Below, piece after piece: positions 17,503-38,362 of a stretch of DNA of 47,048 nucleotides (its first letter is position 1; each line of letters opens with the position of its first letter). The position numbers and the translations under genes were made by a program. The notes beneath the pieces are model-generated. The model saw only the letters and a list, made by a program, of their open reading frames with translations. It did not search any database and was not told the DNA's origin. The stretch is from Clostridia bacterium (GTDB taxonomy: Bacteria; Bacillota; DSM-521; Neomoorellales; JACIYF01). The stretch covers positions 1 through 47,048 of the forward strand of contig JACIYF010000010.1 of NCBI GenBank assembly GCA_014360065.1. Direction: 5' to 3'.

Positions 17503-18078
17503 GTGAACGTAAATCATGTTAGCACGGTTAAAGTCTTAAGTCTACATGTTCAGGCGCCAATGCATGAACCTAGGCTTCTGATCTTGGATGAACTCACCAG
17601 CGGCCTCGACCCGCTGGTGCAGAAGCGCCTGTATGAGCTCTTACTAGAGGAAAACCGCAAAGGCGTGACTGTCTTCTTCTCCTCCCATGTACTCTCCGAG
17701 GTTCAGAAGCTCTGCCACCGGGTCGCCCCTCTCAAAGAAGGCCGGGTGTTGCGTATAGAGGAAATTGAGGCGCTTCGAAGCCGGCAGTTTAAGAAAGTGC
17801 AAGTGACCTTCAAGAGCCCGGCCGGCTCGTTGCCGGAAAACCTGGAAGGTATAGTCAACCCCAAGGAGGAGAACGGCGCCATCAGGTTATTGTTTAATGG
17901 CGGCATCGATGCCCTCGTCGCCATCAGCGCCTTCGTGGCCTATATGATGTCGGTATACCAGTCTTCGTTTGCCGGGGCCGGCAGCGGTGTGGAGCAATTT
18001 ACGACCATGCTATTTATGCTACCCTTACAAGCTCCAGCCTCCTCTGCTATTGGTGAATTCGGCGAAAAAGGTTGCTAA
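17503..18078 (+). pseudogene. ABC exporter remnant: C-terminal half of an ATPase joined to a permease fragment
   Basis: The frame starts inside an ABC ATPase: Walker B region LLILDELTSGLDP, switch histidine SSHVLSE, and a typical C-terminal domain of an ABC-2 exporter ATPase up to about residue 135. Walker A, Q-loop and signature are missing. It then passes directly into a hydrophobic stretch like an ABC-2 permease (AFVAYMMSVYQSSFAGAGSG and on). This fits a large internal deletion between adjacent ATPase and permease genes plus loss of the 5' end. It diverges from the neighbouring AhpD-fold gene. Not expected to be functional. Confidence 0.8.
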
Positions 18079-18126: not shown

Positions 18127-19065
18127 TTAGGTTTGGGTCTGCAGCTTGGGGCGGGGGTAGAGCCCGGCCTCCTTGACGATGGTGGGGACGATGTCCTCCC
18201 ACATCACCGCCATGATGTGCACTCCGGCCACCCCAGGGATGGTCCGTAAGTGCTTAATCTGCTCGATGCAGATAGCTACTCCCTCAGCTTTAGGATCTTT
18301 GGCCGCCTGCATCCGCTGGACGATAGCGTCCGGCACTATCATTCCTGCCACCGACTGCTGCATGTACTTGGCCGCGCCAACCGATTTGATGGGCATCACT
18401 CCGGCCAGGATAGCTACCCGCTTATCCAACCCTCGCTCCCGCACCATGGCCATCCACTTTTCAAACCGCTCCATATCAAAGATAGCTTGGGTCTGGATGA
18501 AATCGGCCCCAGCATTAACCTTTTTTTCTAAACGCAGTACCCGAAACTCAAAGGGATCGGCAAAGGGATTGGCAGCAGCGCCAATGAAGAAACGGGGCTC
18601 GGGCCCTTTTATTTCCTCTCCGCATTGGAACTGCCGCTGGTCCCGCAGGTTCTTCACCATCTGTACTAGCTGGATGGAGTCTAGGTCATGGACATTTTTG
18701 CTCTGGGGATGGTTGCCAAAGGACTGGTGATCCCCGGATAAGCAAAGGACGTTGCGCAAGCCCAAGCTATAGGCGCCCAACAGGTCGCTCTGGAGGGCGA
18801 TGCGGTTGCGATCACGGGTGGTCATCTGGATAATGGGTTCGGCTCCACAACTTTTGACGTGTACCCCGGCAGCAATGCTGGAAAGCCGGACGATGGCGGT
18901 CTGATTGTCGGTAAGATTGATCCCGTCCACGTAGTCCTTGAGCAGGTTGGCATACTTAATAATGCCATCGGGGGAAGCATGCTTGGGCGGGCCTACCTCG
19001 GCCGTGACCACAAACTCTCCTTGGGCCAATAGCCTTTCTAGATTGCTTTCGGTCTTGAGCGTCAT
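18127..19065 (-). CDS. metF: Methylenetetrahydrofolate reductase, catalytic subunit
   Basis: Reduces 5,10-methylene-THF to 5-methyl-THF in the methyl branch of the Wood-Ljungdahl pathway; FAD/FMN-binding TIM barrel. The 312-residue protein shows the MetF pattern: EVGPPK near the N terminus (catalytic Glu region), INLTDNQTA, IQMTTRDRNRIALQSDLLGA, GADFIQTQAIFD and GVMPIKS. The ATG overlaps the metV stop (ATGA), so the two are coupled; MetV-MetF pairs form a complex in acetogens. It is last in the hdrCBA-mvhD-metV-metF cluster. Confidence 0.93.
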   Translation of the reverse strand: MTLKTESNLERLLAQGEFVVTAEVGPPKHASPDGIIKYANLLKDYVDGINLTDNQTAIVRLSSIAAGVHVKSCGAEPIIQMTTRDRNRIALQSDLLGAYSLGLRNVLCLSGDHQSFGNHPQSKNVHDLDSIQLVQMVKNLRDQRQFQCGEEIKGPEPRFFIGAAANPFADPFEFRVLRLEKKVNAGADFIQTQAIFDMERFEKWMAMVRERGLDKRVAILAGVMPIKSVGAAKYMQQSVAGMIVPDAIVQRMQAAKDPKAEGVAICIEQIKHLRTIPGVAGVHIMAVMWEDIVPTIVKEAGLYPRPKLQTQT

Positions 19066-19733
19066 CCCAGCACCACATCCTCCCGGACCACACGGCGCGG
19101 TCCCCCATCCCGAGACTGGGACCAGTCCTTAGGCGGTTGGATCTCTAAAAGCAGGTCTAACTTGCCTAAACTTTGCATGCGGTCATAGATTAGCTGCCAC
19201 GCACAAGGGACATCCTTTTTAACCTCGCACTTGCCGTTTTGGGACCCGCCACAGGGACCGTTGAGAATGCTCTTGGAGCAACGGATGATGGGGCAGATGC
19301 CGCCAGTCTTGTAAAGAATGCATTGTCCGCAAAGGCCGCAGCGCTCCTCCCACCGACCGTGTTCCACTGTACCCCCGGCAAACTTGGTATCCAGCGCTGG
19401 TACCACCCATTTGGGATAGCGCTCGGCCAAAAACTGTACTCCCACTCCGCACCCTAAAGAAAGGACAGCATCCACATCATCGGTGACGTAGGGTGCCAGC
19501 TCCTCCACATACTCGGGATCGCACTGGCGCGTGAGGGTAACTTCCACCGTTTCCAAGGAATCCCCGTCCTTTTTGCGCTCGATGCGCAGGGCGCTGGCCA
19601 AGATCCCCACTTCTTTTTCCCCGCCGGCCAAGCAAACGGTCACGCAGCCGCCGCAGCCTACCACCAGGATCTTGTGGCATCCAGCAATGAGGTCGACTAT
19701 TTCGGCTATGGGCTTCGGCTCAGCAACGATCAT
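19062..19733 (-). CDS. metV: MetV, zinc/Fe-S partner of methylene-THF reductase
   Basis: The 223-residue product belongs to the methylene-THF reductase C-terminal-domain family (MetV), which partners MetF in acetogens. The N-terminal half is Rossmann-like with VVGCGGCVTVC and SLGCGVGVQ. The C-terminal half is Cys-rich (CGLCGQCILYKTGGICP, CSKSILNGPCGG and CEVKKDVPC), suited to Zn or Fe-S binding. Start ATG 19733 has a GGTGGGGAG site. It links MetF physically to the Hdr electron-transfer module in the Moorella complex. Confidence 0.92.
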   Translation of the reverse strand: MIVAEPKPIAEIVDLIAGCHKILVVGCGGCVTVCLAGGEKEVGILASALRIERKKDGDSLETVEVTLTRQCDPEYVEELAPYVTDDVDAVLSLGCGVGVQFLAERYPKWVVPALDTKFAGGTVEHGRWEERCGLCGQCILYKTGGICPIIRCSKSILNGPCGGSQNGKCEVKKDVPCAWQLIYDRMQSLGKLDLLLEIQPPKDWSQSRDGGPRRVVREDVVLG

Positions 19734-19864
19734 TTTCTCCCCACCCATTTCTGTAGTAACATCGATTAATTTCCAAACTTAAGCGCTCAAGCTGGCTCCA
19801 TGGCTCCACTAGGACCAAGCCAGCTTGCATCAAGCCCGCCTGCACCGCCTAAAACCAGCTCCCA

Positions 19865-20287
19865 TTAAGCGCTCTTGACTCGGCCGTTTACCGGGCTGGG
19901 GCCGAGCTTCTTGATGCGCTCGGTAAACTCTCGGGCCACTTCGGCAAAGCGAGAACCCATGGAGGCAGAAAGGTTATACATCTCCAGCCTTTCGCCGCCG
20001 ACCCCAATGGCATCGAGCAGCTTCTTGGTATACTCCACCCGCTTCCTAGCCCGCAAGTTGCCTACTAGGAAATGGCAGTCCCCTTCCAAGCATCCCACCA
20101 CGTAGACGCCATCGGCCCCGTCCTCAAACGCCTCCAGAATTACCCGGACATCGGTTTTCCCCGAGCAGGGGATTTCGATCAGCCGGACGTTGGCCGGATA
20201 CTGCAGACGCATGGATCCGGCTAGGTCAGCTGCCGAATAGGCGCAATAATAACAGCAAAACGCTACGATCTTGGGCTCAAAAGCCAC
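19865..20287 (-). CDS. mvhD: MvhD-like hydrogenase/heterodisulfide reductase iron-sulfur subunit
   Basis: The 140-residue [2Fe-2S]-type electron-transfer subunit passes electrons to HdrA in Mvh-Hdr and related complexes. The family cysteines are all visible: FCCYYCAYSAAD at the N terminus, PCSGK near 43 and VGCLEGDCHF near 66. GTG start at 20287 has its AGGAGG site inside the last codons of hdrA, so it is translationally coupled to that gene. In this cluster it should connect HdrA with the MetFV part or another partner. Confidence 0.92.
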   Translation of the reverse strand: MAFEPKIVAFCCYYCAYSAADLAGSMRLQYPANVRLIEIPCSGKTDVRVILEAFEDGADGVYVVGCLEGDCHFLVGNLRARKRVEYTKKLLDAIGVGGERLEMYNLSASMGSRFAEVAREFTERIKKLGPSPVNGRVKSA

Positions 20288-20290
20288 CTT

Positions 20291-23200
20291 TTACACCTCC
20301 TCAAACAATCCCGCCGCCTTGGCCAAAAGCTGGTTATCCTTATAATGCTGAAGCTGAATGGCCTTGGCCGGGCATTCGCCGGCGCAAGTCCCGCAGCCTT
20401 GACACTGAACCGGATCAATCTCCGCCACGTGGTTGTCGTTGATGCGAGGCACGTGATAAGGGCAAATCCGAACGCAAGTAAGGCAAGCCGCGCACTTAGT
20501 AGGATCGACCACCGCTACTACCCCGCCCACCAGCAGCTGATCGCGGGAAAGGATGGTGCTAGCTCGCGATACCGCCCCTAAGGCCTGGGAGATGGCCTCC
20601 CCTAGGAACTTGGGAGAATGGGCCGATCCGGCCATAAAGATTCCCGCCGAGGGAAAATCAATGGGCGCCAGCTTAGCGTGGGTTTCCACATAAAAACCAT
20701 CTTCATTGACCGGAAGCTTGAGCAGCGAGGCTAGCTTAGCCGCCTCCGGCGGTGCCACCGCCCCGGTGGCCAGGACCACCAGGTCGGGCACAAGCTCCAG
20801 CACCCGACCCGAGGCGGGATCATAAACTTCCACCTCCAGAGCGCCCCACTCTTTCCGGCGCTGGGCGGCATGATTGCCTGCGTTAGCCCCTTCTGCCGCC
20901 AGATCAGTCGATTGGGCCAGCCTGACCTGGGGCTTATGCTCGGGATCATAATTAATGAAAATGATGCCCTCTTCCCTAGCCTTTCGGTAGTAATCCTCCA
21001 TGAAAGCGTAGGTGCGAATATCCCGGTAGAGGATGAATACCTGGGCGTCAGGGTTAGCCTCCTTGAGCTTCAAGGCGTTCTTAATGCTTTGGGCGCAGCA
21101 GGTGCGGCTGCAGTAGAGCCGGCCTGGCTCCCTAGAGCCTACGCACTGGATAAAAACAGCGCAATTAAGGCCATTGCCACCTTCATAGCCAGCCAGGAAT
21201 TCCTCCAGCTCCAAATTGGTAAGGATGCGAGGATCCTGCCCATAGCCATATTCTTCGGGCTGGTATTCTTGGGTACCTATAGCCACAATAATGGCTCCGT
21301 GCTCTAGTTTTACCGTGCGCCGCGCCGTTTCTTTGCCAGAGCGAGACCAGGCAATGGTGGTAACAAAATGCCCTTGGTGGCCGCTACAGTCCTCTATCTC
21401 GGCTCCCGTGTAAATCTCAATCCGGGGATCAGCCTGGGCTCGGGCAATGAGATGGTTCAAATAGCTTCGCACATCGGTGCCCTCAAGAGTGGTACGCAGC
21501 CGCCGGGCCATGCCTCCCAGCTCCGGCTCCTTCTCAATTATATAGGAGCCAAAGCCCTGTTCCGCAAGGGCCAAAGCCGCCACCAATCCGGCCGGTCCGC
21601 CGCCGATGATCAAAGCCCGGGGTACCACGCTGACGGCCTTTAGGTGCAAGGCCTCATGGGTCTTCACCTTGGCCACCGCCATGTGCACCAGATCCTTAGC
21701 CTTCTCGGTGGCACTTTGAGGCTCGGCCCGGTGCACCCAAGAGCACTGGTCCCGGATGTTAGCCATCTCAAAATAGAACTGATTAAGCCCAACTTCCTGC
21801 AGTGCTTCCCGGAAGAGGGGCTGGTGGGTGCGGATGGTACAAGAGGCTACCACCACCCGATTGAGGTGATAATCCTTAATAGCCTGCTGGATCTTTTTGA
21901 TGGTATCTTGAGAGCAGGTATAGAGGTTGTCTTCGGCATGGACCACGCCCGGCAGGCGGCGGGCATAGTCTACCACCTCGGGCACATCCACTACCCCGGC
22001 AATATTGATCCCGCAGTGGCAGATGAACACCCCCACCCGCGGCTCCTCCCGGGACACATCCCGTTCGGGAGGGTAACGCTTGGGTGTTACCAGGGAGTGG
22101 CGGGCGGGCGCCCCCCCCCCGCCCGGGCGGGGGGCCGCCGCGCAGGCGTTGATCACCGTCTCGGGTATATCCCGCGGGCCCTGGAAAGCACCGGCCACAT
22201 ATACCCCCTCCCGCGTAGTCTGAACCGGATTCAGGGGTGAGACCTGAGCAAACCCGTACTGATTGAGCTCGATCCCGCAGGCCTTGGCAATGGCTTGGGC
22301 TTCCGCCGGCGGGCGTACCCCCACTGCCAAAACCACCAGCTCAAATTCTTCCTCCACTACCTTGTCCCCATCAAAATACTTGATGAGCAGATTCTTGGTC
22401 TCAGGGTCCTCGGCTACCCTGGAGATCATGCTGCGGACATAGCGAACGCCGGCTTCTCGGGCCGACTCCACGTATTTATCGAAGTTCTTGCCGTAGGAGC
22501 GCATATCCAGGTAAAAGATGGTGGGCTGAATGTTGCCGTCGTGCTCCCGGGCAATGATCGCTTCTTTGGTGGAGTACATGCAACAGATGGAAGAACAGTA
22601 GGGGCTGCCATCCCGCTCACAGTCCCGCGAGCCCACGCATTGGATGAAGGCCACCCGCCGGGGCGGCTGACCGTCGGAAGGCCGGGTTACATGTCCGGCA
22701 GTAGGTCCAGTGGAGCTGAGCAAGCGCTCGAACTCCAGGCTGGTCATAACATTGGCATAATAGCCGTAGCCATACTCCCCGGCCAGGGAGGCATCGAAGA
22801 GCTCGAACCCGGGAGCCAGAATCACCGCTCCCACCTTCAGCTCTTGGATGCTTTCCTGCTGCCAATGCTCCACCGCCTTCTTCTGGCAGGCAGCTTCGCA
22901 CTGCAGGCATTCGGAGCAAACGCCGCAGTTTAGGCAGCGCTTGGCCTCCTCGATGGCTTCTTCGCGGCTGTAGCCCTGGTAAACTTCCCGAAAGTCCCTA
23001 ACCCGCTCCCCGGCCGCCGCCATGGCCTGGGCATGGCGAGGAGCCGCATAAGGTACTACGCCGGCAGGAGGGGTAAGCTTTTCTTGTTGGGCTCCAGGGC
23101 GCACCCGATCGGCAGCCAAGTCCTCGCCGCGCAGGTAGCGCAATACTGATTCCGCCGCCTCGTGTCCCGAAGCTACCGCCTCTACTACTGACTTAGGACC

Positions 23201-24955
23201 GCTGACGATGTCGCCGCAGGCAAAAACCCCTGGCACCGACGTAGCCAGGGTGAGGTCATCAGCCCATATTAAACCCCGCTCCACTCGCACGGCCGGCTGG
23301 GAATCGGCCAGAAAATCCAAGTCCGCCGCCTGGCCAATGGCTACGATCACCTGATCGGCAGCCAAAGTCTGGGTAGTCTGGGGATCGTATTCAGGATCAA
23401 AACGACCGGCCTCATCAAATACGCGTAGGCAGCGCATGAATTCTACCCCGGTAACCCGAGCAATACCTGGGCCAGCTGCATCGCCCAGGCTACCCTCCGC
23501 CCCCGGGCTCGCCGGGGAGTTGATAAAGCGCTTGGGACCCCAGCCTGGGTGGAGAATTACCCCTTCTTCCACTGCTTCCTCAATCTCCCAAGGGTGCGCG
23601 GGCATCTCTTCCCGTGACTCCAACGAGACCATATGCACTTCCTTGGCCCCTAGCCTTCTGGCGGTGCGGGCCGCATCTATGGCCACGTTGCCGCCGCCAA
23701 TCACCACTACCTTATCCCTGCTACCAACTGGTGGGCCTTGGGGCAGCTGGCCCAAGGCGGCCTGGCGCAAGAACTCCAAGGCGGGTACGATGCCCTGAGA
23801 TGCCGAACCTTCGATGGCCAGCATCCGGCTCTGCTGGAGGCCGGTGGCCAGGATCACCGCCGCGTACTGCCGGCGCAGCTCCTCTAAGGTTACATCTCGG
23901 CCTACTCGGGTATTGCCAATGAACTCGATTCCCAGGGAAAGGATGCGCCTCGTCTCCCGCTCGACTACCTCCTGGGGAAGGCGATAGCGAGGTATCCCTG
24001 CCCGCAACATCCCCCCGGGCTCAGGCAAGGCATCATAAACGGTAACATCTACACTTTCCAAGGCCAAGTCCTGGGCTGCCGTCAGCCCGGCCGGTCCGGC
24101 GCCGACGATGGCTACCCGGGGCCGGACCGGAGCCCCAGTTTGGGTCTCGGTCTGGGCACAGGCTTGGGTCTTGGCCTCGGGCTGGGTCTGGGTCCGGTCT
24201 TCAGCCTTCAGCCTAGCTTCCAGTTCCTGAAAACCTAAGTCATAGGCTGCCCGTTTCAGCCAAGCGATGGCCACCGGGGCATCGATCTCCCCCCGATTGC
24301 ATTGCTCCTCGCAAGGGTGGTGGCAAATCCGGCCGCAGATGCCGGCAAAGGGCAGCCTCCGGTAGATTACCTCCAAAGCCTCGGCAAACTTACCTTGGGA
24401 GATTAAAGCCACATAGCCCTGCACGTTGGTGCCGGCGGGGCAAGTCTGGCGGCAAGGAGGAATACCACGCTTTTCAATTAAGTACTTATTGGGAACCGCC
24501 TGGGGAAAGAGTTTATAGACCGCATGGCGCTGGTCCATGCCCTGGTTAAAACTGTTGGGCACCCGCACCGGGCAAACCTGCTCGCAATCGCCGCAAGCGG
24601 TGCACTCATCAATGTTGATATAGCGGGGCTTAACCCGTACCCGGGCGGTAAAGTTACCCTTTTGCCCTTCAAGCTTCTCTAAAGTGGAGCAGGTGTGGAT
24701 CCGAATGTTGGGGTGGTTTAGGGTATCGGTCATGCGCGGCCCTAGAAGGCACATGGCGCACTCATTGGTGGGAAAAGTCTTGTCCAAGAGGGCCATCTTC
24801 CCACCAATGGAAGGAGACTCGGTCACCAAGTGCACCAAATAGCCGGCATTGGCCAAATCCAGGGCCGACTGCATCCCGGCTATTCCCGCCCCCAGCACCA
24901 ATACCGAGCCCGCAACCTGCTTAGCCTCAGCATCATGAAGTCCCTCAGAACTCAC
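20291..24955 (-). CDS. hdrA: Giant HdrA-like flavoprotein: HdrA + GltD/NfnB-like module + second HdrA
   Basis: About 1554 residues, against about 650 for a single methanogen HdrA. Order seen: HdrA Rossmann start (GAGIAGMQSALDLA) with PTNECAMCLLGP; a ferredoxin motif CTACGDCEQVC (about 115-125); an inserted GltD/NfnB-like module with CRQTC, CGRICHHPCEEQCNRG (about 165-225), a Thr/Gln/Ala-rich linker (about 250-276), FAD and NAD(P) Rossmann motifs (GAGPAGLTAA, GGGNVAIDAAR) and GVFACGDI; CLNCGVCSECLQC; the rest of HdrA-1; then HdrA-2 (FICHCGINIAG, CTIRTHQ, GGGPAGLVAALALAE) and two C-terminal [4Fe-4S] motifs. GTG 24955 was chosen for its GGGAGG site. It is the flavin hub of a MetFV-HdrABC-MvhD complex. 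A C/G-homopolymer patch at 22100-22140 gives an odd Pro/Gly string. Confidence 0.9.
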   Translation of the reverse strand: MSSEGLHDAEAKQVAGSVLVLGAGIAGMQSALDLANAGYLVHLVTESPSIGGKMALLDKTFPTNECAMCLLGPRMTDTLNHPNIRIHTCSTLEKLEGQKGNFTARVRVKPRYINIDECTACGDCEQVCPVRVPNSFNQGMDQRHAVYKLFPQAVPNKYLIEKRGIPPCRQTCPAGTNVQGYVALISQGKFAEALEVIYRRLPFAGICGRICHHPCEEQCNRGEIDAPVAIAWLKRAAYDLGFQELEARLKAEDRTQTQPEAKTQACAQTETQTGAPVRPRVAIVGAGPAGLTAAQDLALESVDVTVYDALPEPGGMLRAGIPRYRLPQEVVERETRRILSLGIEFIGNTRVGRDVTLEELRRQYAAVILATGLQQSRMLAIEGSASQGIVPALEFLRQAALGQLPQGPPVGSRDKVVVIGGGNVAIDAARTARRLGAKEVHMVSLESREEMPAHPWEIEEAVEEGVILHPGWGPKRFINSPASPGAEGSLGDAAGPGIARVTGVEFMRCLRVFDEAGRFDPEYDPQTTQTLAADQVIVAIGQAADLDFLADSQPAVRVERGLIWADDLTLATSVPGVFACGDIVSGPKSVVEAVASGHEAAESVLRYLRGEDLAADRVRPGAQQEKLTPPAGVVPYAAPRHAQAMAAAGERVRDFREVYQGYSREEAIEEAKRCLNCGVCSECLQCEAACQKKAVEHWQQESIQELKVGAVILAPGFELFDASLAGEYGYGYYANVMTSLEFERLLSSTGPTAGHVTRPSDGQPPRRVAFIQCVGSRDCERDGSPYCSSICCMYSTKEAIIAREHDGNIQPTIFYLDMRSYGKNFDKYVESAREAGVRYVRSMISRVAEDPETKNLLIKYFDGDKVVEEEFELVVLAVGVRPPAEAQAIAKACGIELNQYGFAQVSPLNPVQTTREGVYVAGAFQGPRDIPETVINACAAAPRPGGGGAPARHSLVTPKRYPPERDVSREEPRVGVFICHCGINIAGVVDVPEVVDYARRLPGVVHAEDNLYTCSQDTIKKIQQAIKDYHLNRVVVASCTIRTHQPLFREALQEVGLNQFYFEMANIRDQCSWVHRAEPQSATEKAKDLVHMAVAKVKTHEALHLKAVSVVPRALIIGGGPAGLVAALALAEQGFGSYIIEKEPELGGMARRLRTTLEGTDVRSYLNHLIARAQADPRIEIYTGAEIEDCSGHQGHFVTTIAWSRSGKETARRTVKLEHGAIIVAIGTQEYQPEEYGYGQDPRILTNLELEEFLAGYEGGNGLNCAVFIQCVGSREPGRLYCSRTCCAQSIKNALKLKEANPDAQVFILYRDIRTYAFMEDYYRKAREEGIIFINYDPEHKPQVRLAQSTDLAAEGANAGNHAAQRRKEWGALEVEVYDPASGRVLELVPDLVVLATGAVAPPEAAKLASLLKLPVNEDGFYVETHAKLAPIDFPSAGIFMAGSAHSPKFLGEAISQALGAVSRASTILSRDQLLVGGVVAVVDPTKCAACLTCVRICPYHVPRINDNHVAEIDPVQCQGCGTCAGECPAKAIQLQHYKDNQLLAKAAGLFEEV

Positions 24956-25119
24956 CCCAGCGGTCCTCCCTTCTCCCAATCCTTGCGGAATCCCTTGCCT
25001 TGTCAAGTTGGCTTACGCCTTTTCATAATGCCGCCTGGGCTGGCGGCTTCTCCCTCTCTACCTTTGCACAGGGCACCTTGGCCGGCCCGAGCTCCGCCCT
25101 CCTTGCTAGGGCACTCGGG

Positions 25120-26064
25120 CTAGGTACCCGCAGCCGCGGCCACCAGCCTCTCCACGCTAACTAGGTGTCTCCTCCACCATCCGCCCCCGGGAAGGCCCAA
25201 GGCTAAGCCTACCAACTCGGTTAGATAGAATACCGGTAAGGCGGAGCTTAGGCCCGGAACCTGCTTTTGGCGCGAGTCCAAATTGCTTTGACACAAGGGA
25301 CAGGCGGTCACTATGGCTAACGCTCCGGCCCGGCGGGCGGCGGCAACGATGCGCCCCACCAGCTCTTCCACCAGCCCAGGATTGGATATGGCCAAGCTGG
25401 CTCCGCAACATTCAGTCTTATGGGTCCACGGCAAAGCTTTAGCCCCTAGAACTGCCAAGATTTCATCCATAAGCCGAGGTTGTTCGGGATTGGCTTCAAA
25501 GCTAACTACCCGCGGTGGTCGAGTCAAGAGACAACCATAATAAGCCACCACCGGTAAGCCATCCAGTGGCCGGAGAATCCGCCGCGAGAGGCGATCTTTG
25601 ATTTCTGGTTGAGCCAGGAGATCGACGATATGATATACCTTGACTTTTCCCTGGTAGGTTTCGCCCATGACCGCCTGCATTTCTTCCTGGAGGCGTTGAG
25701 CCAGGCCTGAGCTCGCGTCCCCAACTCCCAGCGCCGCCTGAGCCGACCGGAGAGCATGGTAGCAAGCAGCACAGGGAGCTAGTAGGTCCCGTCCCTCTCT
25801 TTGGGCCAGGATGAGGTTGCGCAAAGGCAAAGCATAGGCCAAAAATGGATCCAGGGCGTGGCCAGAACTGGCCCCGCAGCAATTCCAGTCTTCCAATTCT
25901 GTCAACTCTACTCCCAAAGCGGCGCTAATGGCCCGGGTGGACAGAGAGAATTCAGCTGCGGTGGAGTGCAGCGAACACCCTGGATAATAAGCTAACCCCC
26001 TCGAGAGCTCTCCTTGAGTCTCAGCTCTAGATGGCGTCCTAGCGCTAAGGCTGCTGGCAGTCAA
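25120..26064 (-). CDS. hdrB: Heterodisulfide reductase subunit B-like protein
   Basis: The 314-residue protein has two CCG domains that hold non-cubane [4Fe-4S] clusters in HdrB. Domain 1: YYPGCSLHSTAAEF and WNCCGASSG; domain 2: YYGCLLTRP, TECCGASLA and CPLCQSNLD. TTG start at 26064 has an AGGAGATG site. In acetogens HdrB replaces disulfide reduction by an unknown or internal electron acceptor; in this cluster it sits with hdrC, which supplies electrons. It lies between hdrC (75 bp) and hdrA (165 bp). Function is from family knowledge. Confidence 0.9.
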   Translation of the reverse strand: MTASSLSARTPSRAETQGELSRGLAYYPGCSLHSTAAEFSLSTRAISAALGVELTELEDWNCCGASSGHALDPFLAYALPLRNLILAQREGRDLLAPCAACYHALRSAQAALGVGDASSGLAQRLQEEMQAVMGETYQGKVKVYHIVDLLAQPEIKDRLSRRILRPLDGLPVVAYYGCLLTRPPRVVSFEANPEQPRLMDEILAVLGAKALPWTHKTECCGASLAISNPGLVEELVGRIVAAARRAGALAIVTACPLCQSNLDSRQKQVPGLSSALPVFYLTELVGLALGLPGGGWWRRHLVSVERLVAAAAGT

Positions 26065-26139: not shown

Positions 26140-26766
26140 TTATGGTAGAGCGGCCGGCCCGCCAGGTGGCTTTAGGCGGCTACGCTTAAACAATTCCTTG
26201 ATCTCCCCCCGCCCGCGTATCCGTTGGGGCCAAATCCGGAGCTTTCCCCGGCGCAACATGGCCAGCCCTAAAGACACATCCTGCCAAAGGTTGCGAGTTT
26301 TGAGCTTATAGGTAAGCAGCATGAAAAGCTCGTTTACCCTACCGCTGCCGCGAATAGAATCCAGGAAAGTCTGGTGGAAGGTGGCCACTGCCTGGGATTG
26401 GCCGTCCAAGGCGGGTTTTTGGGCCAAGGCCCTAACCTTTAGGGCATCGTTCAGGGCAGAGATATCAATCCCATTGGGGCACCTGGACTTGCAGGTCTGG
26501 CAACCGGTGCAATTCCAAATGCTTTGGCTGGACAAAAGCTCTGATCCCAACCCTAGCTGGAGGTAACGGATAATCTGGTGGGGCAAAATATCCATGGAGA
26601 AAGCCACCGGGCAGCCACCGCTGCACTTACGGCACTGGTAGCAGCGCCAAAACGGCTGGCCGGTCTGGGCTTCAACCCAACTGGCAAGAGACAACAGGGA
26701 TCCAGACCCTACTCCCGGCGTTATCTTTTCTGGCGTCGCCGGTGAGGAGGTAATTGCGGTCGCCAT
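26140..26766 (-). CDS. hdrC: Heterodisulfide reductase subunit C-like ferredoxin protein
   Basis: The 208-residue protein carries two [4Fe-4S] motifs, CYQCRKCSGGCP (about residues 42-53) and CTGCQTCKSRCP (about 87-98), the HdrC pattern that relays electrons between HdrA and HdrB. ATG 26766 with a GGAGGTGAGG site. First gene of the operon hdrC-hdrB-hdrA-mvhD-metV-metF, with a good sigma-A promoter 60-85 bp upstream. Cytoplasmic, no membrane segments. Confidence 0.92.
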   Translation of the reverse strand: MATAITSSPATPEKITPGVGSGSLLSLASWVEAQTGQPFWRCYQCRKCSGGCPVAFSMDILPHQIIRYLQLGLGSELLSSQSIWNCTGCQTCKSRCPNGIDISALNDALKVRALAQKPALDGQSQAVATFHQTFLDSIRGSGRVNELFMLLTYKLKTRNLWQDVSLGLAMLRRGKLRIWPQRIRGRGEIKELFKRSRLKPPGGPAALP

Positions 26767-36042: not shown

Positions 36043-36585
36043 CTAGAACCTCACGACCACGCGGCAGGCCTTGGCCCCGCGCAGCATGCAGGCCTCCTCG
36101 CGCCAGGACAGCGGCCTGCCGTCGTACCGCAGCCCTATGCCCTCGATCAGGCCCTTCAGCAGCGGGCAGAGCTTCCTCTCGCTGCGGTAGACGACCACCA
36201 GTTCGTTGCCCCGGTCTTCGTACTCGAACCGCGGGGGCGCGGCGCCCGGCAGGGTCTTGGTGGCCTGGACATGGACCGAGTCCATCTTCAGCAGGAAATC
36301 CCTAGCATCCCTGGCATTCTTATAATATGCCGCGTAGGTCTTTTGCACTAATGGTGATTCCGCCACGAAGTAGCGGCCGAAATCGGCCAGCACCTCCTCA
36401 GGCTTCTTGCCAGAAAGCTCGGCCAGCGCCCCCACGGCCGCCGCCACTTTCTGGTCGGGGTAGTCGGAAGTGGCGAGCGGCGCCGTCAGCCCGGTCGCCC
36501 TCCTGAAGGCTTCCCTTCCCCCGTCGCCGTGCCGGTTGCCGGCGTACTCCTTGAGCACGGAAAAGATAATGCCTTTCATCTTCAC
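36043..36585 (-). CDS. Stand-alone H-NOX (heme nitric-oxide/oxygen-binding) protein
   Basis: Heme sensor of about 180 residues, the length of single-domain H-NOX proteins. Features: start MKGIIFSVLKEY, FGRYFV near residue 88, a proximal His in DSVHVQ (about 120), PPRFEYE, the heme-propionate motif YRSER (Y-x-S-x-R, about 147-151) and GLIEGIGLRY. Such proteins bind NO (and O2 in some thermophilic anaerobes) and signal to partner kinases, cyclases or chemoreceptors; none is visible here. GTG 36585 has AGGAGG at 7-bp spacing; ATG 36579 would match the family start MKGI. GC content is visibly higher than in the flanks, which hints at transfer. A second copy begins at the window end. Confidence 0.85.
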   Translation of the reverse strand: MKMKGIIFSVLKEYAGNRHGDGGREAFRRATGLTAPLATSDYPDQKVAAAVGALAELSGKKPEEVLADFGRYFVAESPLVQKTYAAYYKNARDARDFLLKMDSVHVQATKTLPGAAPPRFEYEDRGNELVVVYRSERKLCPLLKGLIEGIGLRYDGRPLSWREEACMLRGAKACRVVVRF

Positions 36586-37412: not shown

Positions 37413-38293
37413 TTGGAGAAGCTGGAGCAGGCAGCCGTAGAAGTAGTGGAAGGTATGGAATTCGACCGGGGTTATGTTTCTCCTTACTTTGTGACCAACC
37501 CCGAAGCCATGGAATGTGAACTAGAGGAGCCTTACATCCTTATCCACGAGAAGAAGATCTCGGCCATCAATGACCTTCTCCCCTTGCTAGAGAAGGTAGT
37601 CCGCACCGGTAAGCCGCTCCTCATCATTGCGGAAGATGTGGAAGGCGAAGCCCTGGCCACGCTAGTCGTGAACAAGCTCCGGGGTACCTTAGCTTGCGCG
37701 GCTGTCAAAGCCCCTGGGTTCGGCGATCGCCGGAAGGCCATGATGGAGGATATCGCAATACTCACTGGCGGTACCTTCATCTCCGAGGACCTGGGTGTTA
37801 AGCTGGAGAACGTAGAGCTAAATATGCTCGGCCGGGCCAAGAAGGTCAAGATCGGCAAAGAGAAGACCACTATCGTGGAAGGTTATGGCAGCAAAGATGC
37901 GGTGGCTGGCCGCATAGCCCAGATCAAGAAACAGATCGAAGAGACAGATTCTGACTATGATCGGGAGAAGCTGCAGGAGCGCCTGGCCAAGCTCGCCGGT
38001 GGTGTGGCCGTAATTAAAGTAGGTGCAGCTACAGAAACCGAGCTCAAAGAGAAGAAACACCGTGTCGAGGATGCCCTGGCAGCTACCCGGGCTGCGGTAG
38101 AAGAGGGTATCGTCCTTGGCGGCGGTGCCACACTAGTGCACTGTATCCCGGTGTTGGACACCCTCAAGGCCGAGGGCGACGAGGCTGTGGGGATCAAGAT
38201 CGTTAAGAGGGCGCTGGAAGAACCCCTGCGGCAGATCTGCGCCAACGCAGGGCTTGAAGGTTCTGTTATCGTGGACCGGATGCCCCGACGGGT
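37413..38293 (+). pseudogene. groEL: groEL remnant (apical and intermediate regions only)
   Basis: Clear GroEL sequence from [16 protein letters not shown] to [13 protein letters not shown], about residues 178-475 of a normal 540. Included are [20 protein letters not shown] and [12 protein letters not shown]. The N-terminal equatorial part with the ATP-binding GDGTTT motif and the C-terminal equatorial part are missing. After 38283 the frame runs into unrelated codons. There is no start codon with a ribosome site. The reading frame is otherwise intact over about 290 codons, so the loss may be recent. Confidence 0.85.
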
Positions 38294-38362
38294 ATCCTCC
38301 TTTACTTTTTTCTTTTTTCACGGCGTAAGTTTATGGCGCCGGCTTAAGTATTAGGGTGCGCT

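Follow-up and report, generated by a model that had tools for sequence, protein, structure and literature searches.

A fused HdrA-GltD-HdrA chain of the Moorella type as the likely NADH-oxidising subunit of a type IV methylene-THF reductase

The hdrA gene and its neighborhood

The window considered here (the whole analyzed stretch of 47,048 nucleotides from contig JACIYF010000010.1 of a Clostridia bacterium) encodes on its minus strand an hdrCBA-mvhD-metVF run, in which hdrC (26140..26766; TIGR03290) and hdrB (25120..26064; two CCG domains, by Pfam and NCBIfam) are followed by hdrA (20291..24955) and then by mvhD (FlpD; 19865..20287), metV (DUF5981; 19062..19748) and metF (MTHFR; 18127..19065), the last three recognized by Pfam. 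An earlier note, made from the DNA alone, had placed the HdrA chain in a MetFV-HdrABC-MvhD system, and this neighborhood bears it out; its further suggestion that the chain might work without separate partner subunits is not supported, since hdrC, hdrB, mvhD, metV and metF are all encoded beside hdrA. Elsewhere in the window, a 191-aa ORF (17503-18078, plus strand), in which the C-terminal half of an ABC ATPase lacking Walker A runs into a membrane-like segment, is a probable remnant of an ABC transporter operon. A shortened chaperonin-like protein of 313 aa (37413-38354, plus strand) matches only positions 177-431 of the Cpn60/TCP1 profile, and a stand-alone haem-NO-binding (HNOB) sensor domain protein is encoded at 36043-36585 (minus strand).

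The hdrA frame is open without interruption over 20291-25006 (minus strand), or 1571 codons counted from the first TTG. Because GGAGG, the likely ribosome-binding site (24965..24969, minus strand), sits 9 nt ahead of the GTG at 24955, this GTG is the better start, giving a product of 1554 aa, in agreement with the start and the size of about 1550 residues proposed earlier. Residue numbers below follow the 1571-codon frame; subtracting 17 converts them to numbering from the GTG. A frameshift or gene-fusion artefact was ruled out, as no stop interrupts the frame and dozens of genomes share the layout. Within the gene, a GC-rich stretch that includes ten consecutive G (22100-22145, minus strand) encodes PRPGGGG where relatives have, for example, ACAGSAL, the protein here differing from all of its relatives; gap-free alignment to these relatives ruled out paired frameshifts, and the stretch may represent local divergence or a base-call problem that would leave the frame unaffected.

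Domain architecture of the fused chain

Along the chain, whose features all lie on the minus strand, an FAD site (35-46), Cys83/Cys86 and a CxxCxxCxxxC motif (135-145) are followed by Fer4_20 (183-257) and Pyr_redox_2 (297-614) regions, a second CxxCxxCxxxC motif (697-707), the remainder of an HdrA unit up to 960 and a second HdrA unit, itself composed of an N-terminal domain (about 990-1125), an FAD site (1131-1148) and a C-terminal dicluster ferredoxin (1505-1545). Pfam searches recovered the Fer4_20 domain at 183-257, Pyr_redox_2 in three stretches and Fer4 domains at the C-terminus. Among NCBIfam models, HdrA2 (945 of 1100 bits) and HdrA (693 of 1400 bits) both fell below their curated cut-offs, and the PRK12771 GltD family covered 171-725. 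Alignment to solved structures partitioned the chain in the same manner: residues 34-180 and 697-961 match Methanothermococcus HdrA (5odc_A) with a break within its ferredoxin domain, residues 183-705 match StnC, NfnABC and NfnB, and residues 981-1566 match a second HdrA. AlphaFold models of residues 18-985 (mean pLDDT 81) and 962-1571 (mean pLDDT 83) yielded a TM-score of 0.90 by target length against HdrA 8rvu_a with the insert bridged, 0.79 against NfnB 5jfc_L and, for unit 2, 0.73 against HdrA 5odc_A. Sequence, models and fold searches thus concur on the single-frame order read in the earlier note, namely an HdrA start, a GltD module, the rest of HdrA and a second unit with its own FAD site and ferredoxin motifs; the domain search placed no flavin module out of frame, and the predicted structures matched the HdrA and NfnB/StnC folds as expected.

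With the exception of C224, which is kept in 37/42 homologues, the predicted cluster cysteines are invariant or nearly so among 40-42 distinct full-length homologues, and chance is therefore excluded as the origin of the layout. By our count these cysteines correspond to about nine [4Fe-4S] clusters (the split ferredoxin domain, GltD and the C-terminus with two each, and each TrxR domain and the N-terminal domain with one); Kremp et al. predict eight in Moorella HdrA (PMC9430772).

Two complementary HdrA units

Unit 1 begins with an FAD Rossmann part bearing Cys83/Cys86 (24617..24910; alignment to 5odc_A), continues into the first half of the inserted ferredoxin domain (CxxCxxCxxxC; 24548..24616) and resumes beyond the GltD module with the second ferredoxin half (C697-C707), E760, the C790/C804/C808/C809 cluster and K814 (22127..22936), the latter two segments being delineated by alignment and conservation. 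Its ferredoxin domain is thus interrupted by a complete GltD module and retains both halves of the cysteine motif. Unit 2 comprises an N-terminal [4Fe-4S] domain (21632..22039; alignment and conservation), an FAD domain with E1268, C1288/C1299/C1303/C1304 and K1309 (20522..21622; alignment, conservation and fold search) and the C-terminal dicluster ferredoxin domain (20351..20506; Pfam and conservation). The two-unit reading of the earlier note therefore stands in a modified form: unit 1 is devoid of the N-terminal HdrA domain and unit 2 of the inserted ferredoxin domain. The equivalent of Cys197 of Methanothermococcus HdrA occurs only in unit 1 (Cys86, present in 42/42 homologues) and the N-terminal domain only in unit 2. 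Such complementarity has been described for fused HdrA proteins, that of Moorella among them, by Chadwick et al. (PMC9012536), and suggests that the two units would form an internal pseudo-dimer, in which the N-terminal cluster domain comes from unit 2 and the Cys197-type ligand from unit 1.

The retention of both motif halves in unit 1, together with the reduction of ferredoxin by methanogen HdrA through its inserted ferredoxin domain, could be taken to mean that the chain couples NADH and MetF to ferredoxin, reduced via the inserted or the C-terminal ferredoxin domain. We regard this as improbable: the Moorella complex did not reduce ferredoxin (PMC8578096), the Sporomusa ovata enzyme showed no co-reduction of ferredoxin or NAD(P) (PMC9430772), and GltD interrupts the very domain concerned, a comparable archaeal insertion having been modelled as blocking access of ferredoxin (PMC12054007). 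With that domain absent from unit 2 and interrupted in unit 1, and with the result on the Moorella complex, the earlier proposal of ferredoxin as a partner is not supported.

The GltD module and its nucleotide pocket

The inserted module (22925..24469; Pfam, NCBIfam, structure alignment and fold search) is of the StnC/NfnABC-like type with [4Fe-4S], FAD and NAD(P)H sites. It contains a Fer4_20 part with C228, C232, C236 and, near the FAD, Lys251, equivalent to StnC K170 (24236..24460; Pfam and alignment), and an FAD/NAD(P) Rossmann pair (Pyr_redox_2; 23165..24118; Pfam), which supports the earlier reading of an NAD(P)H entry of its own within one chain. A complete GltD module in frame was correctly read in the earlier note; its affinity lies closer to StnC/NfnABC-type GltD than to the NfnB named there. 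At the FAD-proximal cluster it has Lys251 as in StnC, where NfnB has a Glu ligand, and in place of the Tyr-Arg-Arg of NfnB it has the pocket described below. As its RCLQC segment lies at the C-terminal end of the module as in StnC, and not at the N-terminus as in NfnB, StnC/NfnABC are its nearer structural kin.

An equivalent of the N5-binding arginine (R342; GIPRYRLP) is present in the insert, as would be expected if the GltD module were itself a bifurcating flavin site like that of NfnB. The same arginine occurs in the non-bifurcating StnC and is thus non-discriminating, and we dropped it as a ground for a second bifurcation site. Lys251 by the FAD also sides with StnC and not with the NfnB Glu, which is not decisive; plain, non-bifurcating GltD too has Glu at this position. 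Altogether, we consider bifurcation at the GltD flavin very improbable.

The NADPH-using StnC and NfnB have Tyr-Arg-Arg in the nucleotide pocket, where the window protein has Ser-Leu-Glu and M. thermoacetica HdrA Cys-Leu-Glu. The replacement of Tyr-Arg-Arg-Thr by Ser-Leu-Glu-Ser (23615..23626; alignment) points to an NADH-type pocket. A published rule holds that the GxGxxA motif would mean NADP (PMC12054007); the window protein has such a motif (GGGNVA), but so do NfnB and StnC, which use NADPH, and Moorella HdrA, which oxidises NADH. As the motif does not separate the two nucleotides within this family, we set aside the GxGxxG/GxGxxA rule for NAD versus NADP.

In other Clostridia, modules broadly of this GltD type that carry the Leu-Glu pair are fused directly to a MetV-type C-terminal domain (L042:1242-3035 and L043:7983-9767). 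The fetched flanks of these fusions contained no MetF match; the fusions link such GltD modules to MetV independently, in line with the proposal made below.

Electron entry and the branch point

The E356/K409 bifurcation signature occurs in both units of the window protein (E760/K814 and E1268/K1309). Among homologues, which are related sequences and not independent events, it is found in unit 1 in 42/42 and in unit 2 in 31/42 (E in 40/42, K in 32/42), the unit 2 lysine being S, N, R or Q in 10/42, including MetFV-linked Desulfosporosinus. This difference leads us to place the branch point in unit 1; in S. ovata HdrA the signature is kept in only one of two TrxR domains (PMC9430772). The bifurcating flavin could instead be that of unit 2, and the presence of E and K in both units would also accommodate two tandem bifurcations, one at each flavin, in the way suggested for the benzoyl-CoA reductase complex of Geobacter (cited in PMC9430772). 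The replacement of the unit 2 lysine in the above homologues, MetFV-linked ones included, argues against the tandem scheme, which we judge unlikely.

Based on these observations we propose that the chain likely serves a type IV methylene-THF reductase as its NADH-oxidising subunit, in which electrons would bifurcate or confurcate, with the GltD module as inlet and the unit 1 flavin as branch point; the electron route, the bifurcating flavin and the NADH preference are what we infer from the architecture and its conservation. The GltD module would oxidise NADH at its own FAD, and electrons would pass through its clusters to the surrounding ferredoxin domain and on to the HdrA core. There the unit 1 flavin, the most likely site of bifurcation or confurcation, would link NADH to MetFV (methylene-THF) and, via HdrBC or MvhD, to a third partner, for which a membrane carrier is more likely than free ferredoxin. 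Consistent with this proposal, NADH is oxidised at the HdrA subunit in Moorella (PMC8760232). The NADH:viologen activity of this HdrA is 190 U/mg and that of S. ovata HdrA, which lacks GltD, 0.5 U/mg (PMC9430772), a comparison between species that suggests that GltD is the NADH inlet. Recent work on the Moorella-type enzyme proposes menaquinol as the third partner. Against our proposal, reconstitution of methylene-THF reduction by NADH has never been achieved for the Moorella complex, and a review gives two FAD for Moorella HdrA (PMC5861303), so that of the three flavin sites put forward in the earlier note all three are predicted here and the review's count for the relative is lower. For the energy metabolism of acetogens, in which the third electron partner of this Moorella-type enzyme is under discussion, the present comparison narrows down which flavin is under the strictest conservation, that of unit 1, and which residues set the use of NADH or NADPH.

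A candidate exchange of the GltD module in Thermincola relatives

For the same 42 proteins, the tree of the HdrA core (1027 columns) conflicts with that of the GltD insert (474 columns) on one group, namely six Thermincola-type proteins (L011, L014, L015, L016, L019 and L021), five of which have MetFV beside them, with L021 cut off by the end of its contig. In the core tree these are sisters of the Desulfosporosinus group (support 99), and in the insert tree they fall among fused HdrAs not linked to MetF (support 100 for the group and 97 for a wider set). In AU tests each data set rejects the grouping obtained with the other (p 4.2e-4 for the core data and 5.6e-42 for the insert data). These p values are optimistic, as the tested clades were picked after the trees were seen, but the differences in log-likelihood are large (159 and 178). 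The GltD data do not reject a single clade of all 30 MetFV-type rows (p 0.30) and do reject the inner clades of the core tree. Within 262-641 the Thermincola-type proteins are nearer to non-MetF HdrA (44-69% identity) than to the Desulfosporosinus type (24-53%), and over most of the chain outside this segment the reverse holds, the switch falling near the ends of the GltD module.

All six Thermincola-type proteins have the arginine pair of the NADPH type. The MetFV-linked full-length proteins divide into 19 with Leu-Glu and 7 with Arg-Arg, and nucleotide use therefore probably differs within type IV enzymes. In two proteins (L009 and L027) the arginine pair sits inside an otherwise native GltD module. 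On balance, we lean toward the view that GltD is an exchangeable nucleotide-entry cassette, which in the Thermincola type was replaced as a whole by one from a non-MetF fused HdrA with a change from NADH to NADPH, the remainder of the chain and the operon being kept. We found no report of such a swap in the open-licence papers searched. If true, the GltD module, and not the HdrA core, sets the energetics of this bifurcating step, and the Thermincola swap would constitute a ready-made natural experiment on the residues for NADH versus NADPH.

A second fused HdrA in the same genome

The same genome encodes, on contig C12, a second fused HdrA with GltD, 50% identical and with Tyr-Arg-Arg in the pocket. 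It lies in a same-strand run (C12:7000-24500; L061:2815-15635, minus strand) of the order hdrA'(without GltD)-hdrA''-mvhD-metV-metF-hdrC-fused hdrA-mvhD-mvhG-like-mvhA-like, from which hdrB is absent. With an NADPH-type GltD in its fused hdrA, HdrA as a split pair without GltD, two copies of MvhD and subunits of a [NiFe]-hydrogenase, this run looks, by its gene content, like a candidate H2-linked second MTHFR system. Another genome (G294) has a similar split HdrA pair and fused HdrA with no MetFV match.

Relationship to known systems

A genome scan returned 60 loci, with full-length matches at 68-69% identity in Moorella thermoacetica, stamsii, mulderi and sulfitireducens; the M. thermoacetica protein (L013) aligns at 68% over residues 27-1571 of the window chain. 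Within the taxonomic order of the window genome, a complete chain is found in 18/21 other genomes, at about 70% identity, and a fragment at a contig end in one more; relatives also carry HdrA forms of 950-1080 aa without GltD. The gene order hdrCB-hdrA-mvhD-metVF is the same in Moorella and relatives. In operon, two-unit-plus-GltD layout, full-length homology and complementarity, the window chain agrees throughout with the Moorella form of the type IV (Hdr-type) MTHFR HdrA. The novelty once suspected of the architecture thus falls away: it is exactly that of Moorella HdrA, laid out by Kremp et al. in 2022 (PMC9430772), and the ordinary state in the order, so that the window hdrA is one more sequence of a known enzyme. 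It is ordinary for this lineage and not for all acetogens, as the HdrA of Sporomusa ovata is without GltD.

The M. thermoacetica MetFV-HdrABC-MvhD HdrA (Mock et al. 2014; PMC9430772) shares with the window protein the operon, the domain order, three predicted FAD sites, one NAD(P)H site and the E/K pair in both units; the window protein exceeds it by about 65 residues, most of them in loops and linkers, and has SLES in the nucleotide pocket where the former has CLES. The S. ovata HdrA (942 aa; PMC9430772) belongs to the same operon and combines a TrxR-like unit with an HdrA unit, but differs in having no GltD module and a much lower NADH activity than that of Moorella. StnC/NfnABC GltD (8oh5, 9bov, 9n5u) and NfnB (4ylf, 5jfc) share the GltD fold with its FAD and NAD(P) Rossmann pair, and StnC also the Lys at the FAD-proximal cluster; they have the Tyr-Arg-Arg NADPH motif, whereas the window protein has Ser-Leu-Glu. 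Archaeal type III HdrA and ANME-1 HdrA9-11 (PMC12054007, PMC9012536) likewise have a GltD/NfnB-like module within the HdrA ferredoxin domain; these are reported as nine sequences from methane-metabolising archaea that stem from two separate insertions and are not tied to MetFV, and the window chain is set apart from them by its second HdrA unit and its MetFV context.
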